DNA of 64,000 nt from Methanobrevibacter sp. TLL-48-HuF1 (GTDB taxonomy: Archaea; Methanobacteriota; Methanobacteria; Methanobacteriales; Methanobacteriaceae). The position numbers and the translations under genes are program-made. Shown in pieces: positions 6,484 through 9,494 of this stretch. The stretch covers positions 1,416,501 to 1,480,500 of the forward strand of contig NZ_CP081485.1 in the NCBI RefSeq assembly GCF_023617305.1, read 5' to 3'. Numbering within the stretch: the stretch's first letter is position 1; each line of letters opens with the position of its first letter. The notes under the pieces are model-generated. The model saw nothing but the letters and a program-made list of their open reading frames with translations, had not been told where the DNA came from and made no database searches.

Positions 6484-6507
6484 AAGGTAGGAGATTTATT
6501 CTACCTT
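6484..6507 (-). terminator. Hairpin at the end of the metallochaperone gene
   Basis: AAGGTAG and CTACCTT form a 7-bp stem around a 10-base loop that contains the gene's stop codon. In the minus direction it is followed by a T-rich stretch. Confidence 0.45.
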
Positions 6508-6708
6508 AAATCCAGCTTCTTGGACAGCTTCAGCTAAATCAGAATCAGATACTTTATCGGAATCAAATGTAACTTTTGCAGTATTAGTTTCTAAGTCAGC
6601 TTTAGCATCTTCTACACCATCTAAATCTTTTATGGAAAGCTCAACAGCTGCTACACAAGATGGACAGTGCATTCCAACAACATTAATAGTTTTTTCTTCA
6701 GTTGCCAT
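6496..6708 (-). CDS. Heavy-metal-associated domain protein (copper-chaperone-like)
   Basis: A 70-residue single HMA domain with the metal-binding motif GMHCPSC (Cys15 and Cys18) and the typical beta-alpha-beta-beta-alpha-beta length. It probably carries Cu(I) to the P-type ATPase encoded just upstream, which lacks its own N-terminal HMA domain. It has its own strong AAGGAG ribosome site and its own TATA box, so it can be expressed separately from the ATPase. Copper is the likely metal by family; the sequence does not prove it. Confidence 0.88.
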   Translation of the reverse strand: MATEEKTINVVGMHCPSCVAAVELSIKDLDGVEDAKADLETNTAKVTFDSDKVSDSDLAEAVQEAGFKVE

Positions 6709-6756: not shown

Positions 6757-6764
6757 TATATAAA
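6757..6764 (-). promoter_or_regulatory. TATA box of the metallochaperone gene
   Basis: On the minus strand this is TTTATATA, matching the archaeal box A, about 50 bases upstream of the ATG at 6708. I see no copy of the TATACC-N6-GGTATA palindrome here. Confidence 0.5.
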
Positions 6765-6785
6765 CTTTTAGTCATGCCAAAATAT

Positions 6786-8636
6786 TTATCTGTAATTTAA
6801 AAGTAGTGATGCATAAACAATTACAATAACTGAACCAATGTTATGTACAAATGCTCCTTCAATAGGATTTAATAATCCAAGCATAGCTAAAACTGTTGCT
6901 ATTAAATTTAAGGTTAATGCAAATCCAATTCCAGCATTAATGGTTCTTAAAGTCTTTTTAGATACTTTAAATAAATGGGGTAAGTCTTGGATATTGTCAT
7001 GGATTAAAGTAATATTTGAAGCTTCAATTGAAATGTCACTGCCGATGCTGCCCATTGAAATTCCTACATTAGCTTGTTTAAGAGAGGGAGCATCATTTAA
7101 TCCGTCTCCAATCATAGCTACTTTATTATTTTTTAATTGTAATTCTTTAATGTAATTACTTTTATCTTCTGGTAAACAGTTATATTTGTAATTGTCAATC
7201 TCGACTTTCGAAGCAATAGTTTGAGTTGTATTTTGATTGTCTCCACTCATAAGTACCGGAGTAACATTCATTGATTTTAAATTAAGAATAACATCAACTG
7301 CATTATTTCTTAAAAGGTCCGATAATAATACTGCTCCAATTAACTGATTATTCATACAAAGATAAATTGCAGTTGCTCCGGCATCTAAATGAGGCTGAAC
7401 TTTTGTTTTTTCAAATTTTTTATAGTTTTCATTTAGAAGCTTTTTGTTTCCAGCTACTATTTCATTATTTCCAATTTTTCCTTTAACTCCTTTTCCAGAA
7501 ATAATCTCAAAATCATTTATTTCTTTCAATGGGGGATTTTTACGGATTTTATAATATTTCACAATTGCTTTAGCAAGAGGATGTTCTGATTTATTTTCAA
7601 GTGATGCAAGAATATGCATTATTTCATTTTTAGTGTATTTCTTATCATATGGGATTATTTGATTTACTTCTGGTTCTCCATAAGTTAATGTTCCGGTTTT
7701 GTCTAAAATTATACTATTTACTTTAGCTAGCTCTTCAAGAGTTTCTCCATCTTTAACAAGAATTCCTTTTTTGCTTAAATTTCCAATAGCTGCCATAATT
7801 GCTGTTGGCGTAGCTAAAACTAATGCACATGGGCAAAATACTACAAGTATTGTAACTGCTCTTAAAATTTCATGAGTTATAATCCATGTTCCTATTGAAC
7901 AGATAAATGCAACTACAACAATCCATGTTGCCCATCTGTCAGCTGCTTTTACGATTTTTGCATTTTCAGGTTTTGAAGATTCAATTAATTTTATTAATTT
8001 GTTTACTGAACTGTTTTCTCCATTTTTTGTTGCTTTGATGATTATTGAACCATATAAGTTTATTGTACCGCTGTATACTTCATCACCTACAGTTTTATCC
8101 ACAGGAAGTGACTCTCCAGTTAATGCTGCTTGGTTTATTGAAGATTCACCTTTTATAATTACTCCATCTCCGGGAATTATTTCTCCAGGCAATACTTTGA
8201 TAATATCGTTTATTCTGATATTTTGAGCAGCTATTTCTTTTTCATCCACATTACTGTTTATTATTGTTGCAGTTGTTGGAGTAATGTCAATTAAATGTTT
8301 AATTCCATTTTGAGTTTTGCTTACGGTGTATTCTTCTAAAAATCCTCCAATAGTCATGATTAAAGCAATTACTCCTGCAGCAAATACTTCACCAATTATT
8401 ATTGATGATATGATAGCTATTGAAACAAGTAAATCTGCTTTTATGTCTTTTTCATGTATTAATGATTCTATTGCTTCTCTGATTATGGGCAAACCACATA
8501 ATATAACTGCTATCCATGATAAATCAAAGAATAATAAGTCTGGTTTTATAAAACCAGTTATTAATGAGATAGCTGAAATAACCATTAAGATTATTTCTTT
8601 TAATTCATCTTTTCCTAGCCAATTTTTAATATTCAT
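6786..8636 (-). CDS. P1B-type heavy-metal-transporting ATPase
   Basis: A 616-residue membrane pump that exports a heavy-metal ion using ATP. It has the metal site CPC at residues 268-270, the phosphorylation motif DKTGTLT (Asp312), TGES in the actuator domain, SEHPLAKAI in the nucleotide-binding domain and GDGLNDAP in the hinge. It is short because the usual N-terminal metal-binding domain is missing; a free HMA protein is encoded next to it. The last helix carries HNIGS rather than a clear copper or zinc signature, so specificity is open. A TATACC-N6-GGTATA palindrome lies 21-38 bases upstream of the start. Confidence 0.92.
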   Translation of the reverse strand: MNIKNWLGKDELKEIILMVISAISLITGFIKPDLLFFDLSWIAVILCGLPIIREAIESLIHEKDIKADLLVSIAIISSIIIGEVFAAGVIALIMTIGGFLEEYTVSKTQNGIKHLIDITPTTATIINSNVDEKEIAAQNIRINDIIKVLPGEIIPGDGVIIKGESSINQAALTGESLPVDKTVGDEVYSGTINLYGSIIIKATKNGENSSVNKLIKLIESSKPENAKIVKAADRWATWIVVVAFICSIGTWIITHEILRAVTILVVFCPCALVLATPTAIMAAIGNLSKKGILVKDGETLEELAKVNSIILDKTGTLTYGEPEVNQIIPYDKKYTKNEIMHILASLENKSEHPLAKAIVKYYKIRKNPPLKEINDFEIISGKGVKGKIGNNEIVAGNKKLLNENYKKFEKTKVQPHLDAGATAIYLCMNNQLIGAVLLSDLLRNNAVDVILNLKSMNVTPVLMSGDNQNTTQTIASKVEIDNYKYNCLPEDKSNYIKELQLKNNKVAMIGDGLNDAPSLKQANVGISMGSIGSDISIEASNITLIHDNIQDLPHLFKVSKKTLRTINAGIGFALTLNLIATVLAMLGLLNPIEGAFVHNIGSVIVIVYASLLLNYR

Positions 8637-8656
8637 TTAATCACCTAAAGTATAGG

Positions 8657-8674
8657 TATACCCCTATAGGTATA
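8657..8674. promoter_or_regulatory. Putative metal-repressor operator upstream of the P-type ATPase
   Basis: The 18-base palindrome TATACCCCTATAGGTATA has perfect 6-base arms (TATACC/GGTATA) around a 6-base centre. A second copy of the same arms with the same spacing lies in front of the CsoR-family gene at 8978-8995. The two sites being in exactly these places suggests operators of that regulator. This is inference, but the shared arms and spacing are directly visible. Confidence 0.65.
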
Positions 8675-8692
8675 AAATTATTTTAAAAAAAA

Positions 8693-8965
8693 TTAAATTC
8701 TGGAATAATATTCTAAAATTGTAGATACATCAGCTAATGCTTCTTCAGTATCTCCTTTTTCCATACTTTCTTTAATACAATGTTCAAGATGTCCTTCAAC
8801 AATTATATGTCCTACTTTGTGTAGTGCTGATTTTGATGCATTTATTTGCATTAAAATATTTTCACAAGGAACATCTTCATCAATCATACGATCAATTGCA
8901 TTTAGTTGACCTATTATTTTTTTTAATCTTCTGTGAAGATTCTCAGAATCCATACATTTTTTCAA
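8693..8965 (-). CDS. CsoR/FrmR-family metal-sensing repressor
   Basis: A 90-residue all-helical repressor of the CsoR/RcnR/FrmR family. The Cys-His-Cys triad typical of copper sensors is present at Cys34, His59 and Cys63, in the usual spacing (RMIDEDVPC; GHLEHC). It likely represses itself and the neighbouring ATPase until metal binds. The open frame begins with TTG at 8965; an ATG at 8953 gives a protein four residues shorter and would remove Cys4. Neither has a clear ribosome site. Its promoter has a TATA box at 9009-9016 and the palindromic operator between box and start. Confidence 0.88.
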   Translation of the reverse strand: MKKCMDSENLHRRLKKIIGQLNAIDRMIDEDVPCENILMQINASKSALHKVGHIIVEGHLEHCIKESMEKGDTEEALADVSTILEYYSRI

Positions 8966-8977
8966 AATAACACAACC

Positions 8978-8995
8978 TATACCTAGTAGGGTATA
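8978..8995. promoter_or_regulatory. Putative autoregulatory operator of the CsoR-family gene
   Basis: The 18-base sequence TATACCTAGTAGGGTATA repeats the arms TATACC/GGTATA and 6-base spacing seen before the ATPase. It lies 13-36 bases downstream of the TATA box at 9009-9016, where an archaeal start site would be, so a bound repressor could block polymerase loading. Confidence 0.65.
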
Positions 8996-9008: not shown

Positions 9009-9016
9009 TATATAAA
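9009..9016 (-). promoter_or_regulatory. TATA box of the CsoR-family gene
   Basis: The minus strand reads TTTATATA, a perfect box A, 44-51 bases upstream of the TTG start at 8965. The palindromic operator begins 14 bases downstream of it. Confidence 0.6.
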
Positions 9017-9068: not shown

Positions 9069-9494
9069 TTAGGTTACATCTATAATACCTGATCCATCAC
9101 CAGAACTACTGCCTGATCCTGAATCTCCGCTTGAGGAACTTCCGCTGTGGCTTGAACCTCCGCTTGAAGACCCTCCGCTTGAAGAGCTTCCACTTGAAGA
9201 GCTTTCACTGTGGCTTGTTCCACTTTGATGGCTTGAACTTCCACTTGAAGAGCTTCCAGTTGTTGAACTGGAACTGGAATCAGAACTTGAAGAACTTCCT
9301 CCAGATGAACTGGAATCAGAACTGGAACTGCTTTGATCAGATAAAGTACTATTGCTAGTTAAATTAATTGTAGAATTATTATCATGTTCAGTTGTATTAT
9401 CTGATGAATTGGTAATGTTTGTTGCATAAAAGACTAACCCAATGAGGATAATACAAACAATAATAATTGCAAGTATAATATTATTTTTCTGCAA
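9069..9494 (-). CDS. Ser/Gly-rich membrane-anchored surface protein
   Basis: A 141-residue protein with one hydrophobic helix at residues 6-27, then an acidic and Asn-rich segment, then about 90 residues made almost only of Ser and Gly with a few His, Asp and Thr. This looks like a membrane-anchored, probably glycosylated outer stalk; no enzyme domain is visible. It starts with TTG one base after the stop of the adhesin-like gene, and its ribosome site (GGAGA) lies in that gene's last codons, so translation is coupled. The low-complexity DNA (about 9100-9330) is prone to length change. Function unknown. Confidence 0.7.
   Translation of the reverse strand: MQKNNIILAIIIVCIILIGLVFYATNITNSSDNTTEHDNNSTINLTSNSTLSDQSSSSSDSSSSGGSSSSSDSSSSSTTGSSSSGSSSHQSGTSHSESSSSGSSSSGGSSSGGSSHSGSSSSGDSGSGSSSGDGSGIIDVT

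Follow-up and report, generated by a model that had tools for sequence, protein, structure and literature searches.

Based on the comparison of the DNA with related genomes and published operators, it was concluded that two palindromes of the form TATACC-N6-GGTATA are, very probably, the operators recognised by the CsoR-family repressor whose gene lies between them. The window, i.e., the whole stretch of 64,000 nucleotides analysed, belongs to Methanobrevibacter sp. TLL-48-HuF1. The preliminary description had claimed paired 18-base sites upstream of an ATPase and a repressor. Both sites were found at the claimed positions, one located 20 nt 5' of the pump ATG (8636) and the other 12 nt 5' of the csoR TTG start codon. 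The features are given below in their order along the minus strand.

9016-9009, minus strand (9009..9016): csoR TATA box TTTATATA, its position conserved across the window's genus
8995-8978, minus strand (8978..8995): csoR operator TATACCTAGTAGGGTATA, TATACC-CTACTA-GGTATA on the csoR strand
8693..8965, minus strand: csoR, CsoR/RcnR-family repressor of 90 aa with a TTG start (Pfam PF02583)
8692-8685, minus strand (8685..8692): T8 tract, terminator-like, directly 3' of the csoR stop codon
8674-8657, minus strand (8657..8674): pump operator TATACCCCTATAGGTATA, TATACC-TATAGG-GGTATA on the pump strand
8656-8651, minus strand (8651..8656): extra half-site CCTATA (TATAGG on the plus strand), abutting the pump operator
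6786..8636, minus strand: heavy-metal P1B-type ATPase of 616 aa, P1B6-like (TIGR01525, 572 bits, cut-off 346)
6496..6708, minus strand: CopZ-like HMA protein of 70 aa (MHCPSC; PF00403; best NCBIfam match CopZ, below cut-off)

The TATA box of csoR, previously called perfect, proved to be real, and because of its position the csoR transcription start would be expected near the middle of the csoR operator, i.e., near 8987 and about 25 nt away from the centre of the TATA box. The pump promoter had a weak TATA box. The extra half-site and the pump operator together formed a direct repeat TATAGGTATA-CCCC-TATAGGTATA, and this half-site was kept as GGTATA-CCTATA in the window's genus and in a second Methanobrevibacter genus. 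A T-run 5' of the pump operator was likewise conserved among the loci compared. Directly upstream of csoR lay a short, secreted-looking open reading frame (9069-9494, minus strand) with a Ser/Gly-rich low-complexity tail, for which no Pfam match was obtained.

Throughout the 1,951,395-bp genome, the exact motif occurred at these two places alone, and the reversed pattern, used as a control, gave 0 exact matches over the same length. The chance expectation for the exact motif was 0.08 per genome (Markov-1, window composition). Under the Markov-1 model, two exact motifs within 339 bp would occur with a probability of about 1e-10, an estimate made post hoc, so that the relatives served as the independent test of the motif.

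Among the relatives, csoR homologues were recorded in 98 of the 151 genomes of the order (7 of 19 genera), and the exact motif in 92 of the 151. The motif was present in 87 of 98 genomes with csoR and in 5 of 53 genomes lacking it (Fisher p 6.5e-23, with both genome lists drawn by hand from two tables); since the compared genomes are related, these counts are not independent and the p value is no clean probability. The csoR-side site was retained with at most one mismatch in all 55 loci of the window's genus, and the pump-side site, between csoR and the pump, in 54 of them. Both sites were also found in 12/12 loci of the second Methanobrevibacter genus. The csoR site ended 12 or 13 nt upstream of the start codon in 53 of the 55 loci, and in those 53 a TATA box was located 12-19 nt upstream of the site. 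The comparison of the loci gave an information content of about 2 bits per position for the arms and 0.5-0.9 for the middle of the centre. Hence the centres did vary, as had been claimed, but they were not wholly free: C was favoured following the left arm and G preceding the right arm. Altered forms of the motif, such as TATACCTATACCCCTATA, were observed in genera g3 and g8. The csoR of a relative (G045) was 98% identical to that of the window, and one Methanobrevibacter genome carried a tandem duplicate of csoR (L005 / L123). An operator shared by the pump and the repressor was thus strongly supported by the co-occurrence with csoR, the near-invariant arms and the fixed position.

Further, the sites were compared with published CsoR boxes; no archaeal CsoR operator was found in the literature searched. 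The window sites consisted of an AT-rich inverted repeat outside two short G/C tracts in a TAC...GTA frame, as in type-2 CsoR operators. The boxes of Streptomyces lividans csoR/copZA (ATATACCCCTNAGGGGTATAT; PMC3902906), S. aureus copA (ATACCtataGGGGGTAC; PMC5947656) and Bradyrhizobium csoR-cueA (TATACCCCTACCGGGTATA; PMC5057107) similarly stand before a pump and/or csoR and have TATACC/GGTATA-like arms with G/C tracts. However, all three published boxes are of the TAC-X9-GTA form, whereas 8 bases separated TAC from GTA at both window sites, in the Methanobrevibacter relatives and in gut bacteria with the same CsoR. Judged by its sequence, the window operator is a putative type-2 CsoR box in which the spacing is reduced by one base to TAC-X8-GTA, and it differs from those boxes in standing behind an archaeal TATA box.

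The scan of named genomes yielded full-length members of the same CsoR subfamily with about 49-66% identity. Their bacterial carriers were Lachnospiraceae, Ruminococcus, Treponema, other Spirochaetes, Parasutterella and others, and the archaeal ones Methanobrevibacter and Methanomassiliicoccales. Gut Firmicutes, Spirochaetes and a Parasutterella were found to carry this CsoR-pump pair together with the same operator. In 10 bacterial loci a CPC-type pump came after csoR (L174, L179, L181, L182, L190, L193, L194, L198, L199 and L200), and every one of them had a TAC-X8-GTA site between the two genes. Several bacterial loci had the operator inside the TTGACA/TATAAT promoter spacer, e.g., TTGACA-acctaTACCCCCATAGG-TATAAT in L199, and in promoters of this type the -10 box began with bases of the operator's right arm. 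Two loci of Methanomassiliicoccales had X9 sites, arranged in pairs. The operator is therefore not an archaeal invention, as gut bacteria with this CsoR-pump pair have the same sequence within sigma-70-type promoters. The preliminary description had presented an archaeal metal regulon with a clear operator rule; the shared operator was upheld, but the rule extends to only two promoters here and is not archaeal in kind.

The repressor was assigned to the CsoR/RcnR (DUF156) family by a PF02583 score of 86.2 bits (cut-off 22.8) over residues 7-84. The conservation of residues 1-6 (xKxCMD) supports the TTG at 8965 as the csoR start codon. The metal site of CsoR lies between subunits, and the candidate metal ligands of the window repressor are C34, H59, C63 and C4. 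C34 was present in 88 of 89 archaeal sequences, H59 and C63 in 89/89, and the whole Cys-His-Cys set in 22/22 bacterial sequences. The additional Cys4 was invariant in the archaeal and bacterial sequences of the subfamily. The fold family and the Cys-His-Cys set are common to the Cu(I)-sensing CsoR proteins of M. tuberculosis, Geobacillus and S. lividans. However, Tyr35-His61-Glu81, the copper allosteric network of Cu(I)-sensing CsoR (PMC7055735), was not retained: the Tyr35 column was Pro (Pro33) in 84 of 89 archaeal and 22/22 bacterial sequences, and the Glu81 column held Asp in most archaeal sequences and varied among the bacterial ones. The closest solved structures by sequence were a Cu-CsoR (the best) and InrS, the Synechocystis nickel sensor, in which the copper ligand set is combined with the N-terminal ligand His21 (PMC7055735). 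InrS and the window repressor have the three ligand positions and the Pro before the first Cys in common, but the column of RcnR His3/InrS His21 was aligned with Lys in the latter, with a Cys two residues later.

The pump had no N-terminal HMA domain and carried CPC and HNIGS. In copper ATPases of the P1B-1 type (CopA), CPC is accompanied by YN and MxxSS, which are situated in the last helices. The window pump shares the CPC with them but contains LN and HNIGS, and its motifs (VVFCPCALVLATP and VHNIGSVIVI) were those of the P1B6-like, CtpC type. The combination of CPC and HN is called P1B6-like in a study of CtpC, which has been linked to zinc and earlier to manganese (PMC9374683). CtpC and the window pump share the CPC and the conserved HN motif, whereas the partner of CtpC is PacL1 (DUF1490) and that of the window pump a CsoR-family repressor. 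The order of repressor, pump and chaperone matches that of the Listeria csoR-copA-copZ operon (PMC10233261), but the pump here is not of the P1B-1 type and copZ is apparently controlled separately.

A wider regulon in this genome was considered and rejected, as no further exact site was found. The CopZ-like gene, considered as a third target, had no operator but a conserved upstream element of another kind (TTAGGCATNACTAAA at about 6759-6785, minus strand, just before a TATA box TTTGGCATGACTAAA), and it is probably under control separate from the CsoR operator. The CopA of the genome, with HMA domains and MALSS, was preceded by an element resembling TTAGGCATNACTAAA (G000:C1:1205513), and palindromes TTTAGGYRTRCCTAAA were clustered at G000:C1:710-714 kb; these elements and palindromes look like a separate regulon, possibly of the DtxR type. 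Further pumps of the genome were a ZntA-like pump beside its own ArsR-type gene, a P1B6 pump and a second CPC/HN pump (L234, G000:C1:1925500-1931000) with a His-rich tail. The exact operator was absent at CopA, the ZntA-like pump and the second CPC/HN pump. Repeated AGTAATACT elements upstream of the latter suggest another metal-responsive operator.

Copper as the effector had been implied by the binding test proposed in the preliminary description, but the pump type and the details of the sensor leave copper, nickel or zinc open as candidate metals of the pair. We lean towards copper, since the Cys-His-Cys set is retained, the best structural match is a Cu-CsoR, Lys occupies the column of the N-terminal His of RcnR and InrS, and a CopZ-like gene is the neighbour in the window's genus. 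This last argument is weakened by the different upstream element of the CopZ-like gene and by the lack of such a gene next to the pump in the second Methanobrevibacter genus. It is quite possible, although not our preferred reading, that the operators are assigned correctly but that what the repressor senses and the pump exports is nickel, zinc, cobalt or cadmium rather than copper. In that case C4 would act as a further ligand, much like His21 of InrS, a precedent for the copper ligand set in a nickel sensor. The replacement of Tyr35 by Pro33, the invariant Cys4, the zinc link of CtpC and a CopA that lacks the operator all point in this direction.

Methanosphaera-like genomes (g12) departed from the common arrangement. 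There, csoR followed rpiA and no operator was found upstream of it; the operator came after csoR and was followed by a short membrane peptide. The open reading frame 3' of this operator in L078, L087 and L090 was roughly 45-75 aa long, with one membrane segment and a shared FYL.IY motif. Dispersed exact sites, 5-8 per genome, were recorded in G118, G121, G130, G114 and G117 (L203-L222), near genes of FeoA, flavodoxin, ferredoxin, nitroreductase, MarR/MATE and J-domain proteins. They may belong to an enlarged CsoR regulon or to a different regulator that reads this motif. Since csoR lacks an upstream operator there and exact sites occur at unrelated genes, another protein may read the motif in Methanosphaera. 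It is nevertheless improbable that the palindrome in general serves a different regulator and is no more than a neighbour of csoR, as the motif is largely missing from genomes without csoR, resembles experimentally bound CsoR boxes and persists beside this csoR in distant bacteria. A pair of chance repeats in AT-rich DNA may be practically dismissed: two-mismatch versions, numbering 69 in the genome, were uninformative, being fewer than the 138 of the reversed control, while the exact form occurred at the two places alone and its conservation in dozens of species already refuted that reading.

With both palindromes taken as CsoR operators, the following mechanism was proposed. By analogy with CsoR, the metal-free repressor, expected to be a tetramer, would bind both 18-bp sites. 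At csoR it would cover the start of transcription, expected about 25 nt downstream of the TATA box, and since the operator covers this predicted start, a block of polymerase loading or opening is likely. At the pump gene, bound 20 nt upstream of the ATG, it would lie over the promoter or the leader. The T8 tract behind csoR resembles an archaeal terminator and would account for a separate operator at the pump. Excess metal bound at C34-H59-C63, perhaps with C4, would release CsoR, and both the export and the repressor's own gene would be switched on. The module of CsoR subfamily, CPC/HN pump and operator also occurs in gut bacteria, and in Methanobrevibacter its operator is combined with archaeal promoter elements.

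The Methanobacteriaceae pumps were grouped in the pump tree and adjoined a mixed-phylum clade of gut bacteria, with the support of the deep forks open. The natural reading of these sequences is that the module has been exchanged within the gut. Its direction of transfer is inferred only and unproven, because of the open deep-fork support and a bacterial sampling biased to csoR loci. More tentatively, and with considerable doubt, one cross-domain module could unite the CsoR subfamily (Cys4, Pro33, Cys-His-Cys), CPC/HN pumps and TAC-X8-GTA, its operator working in both the bacterial sigma-70 spacer and the TATA-directed start of gut methanogens, with a metal other than copper.

The operator rule is precise enough to be tested with two oligonucleotides. 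The features of the sensor and the pump question the routine 'copper' annotation of such genes in methanogens. Together with its bacterial counterpart, the operator would provide a natural example of one sequence used by two dissimilar transcription machineries once genes had been exchanged in the gut.
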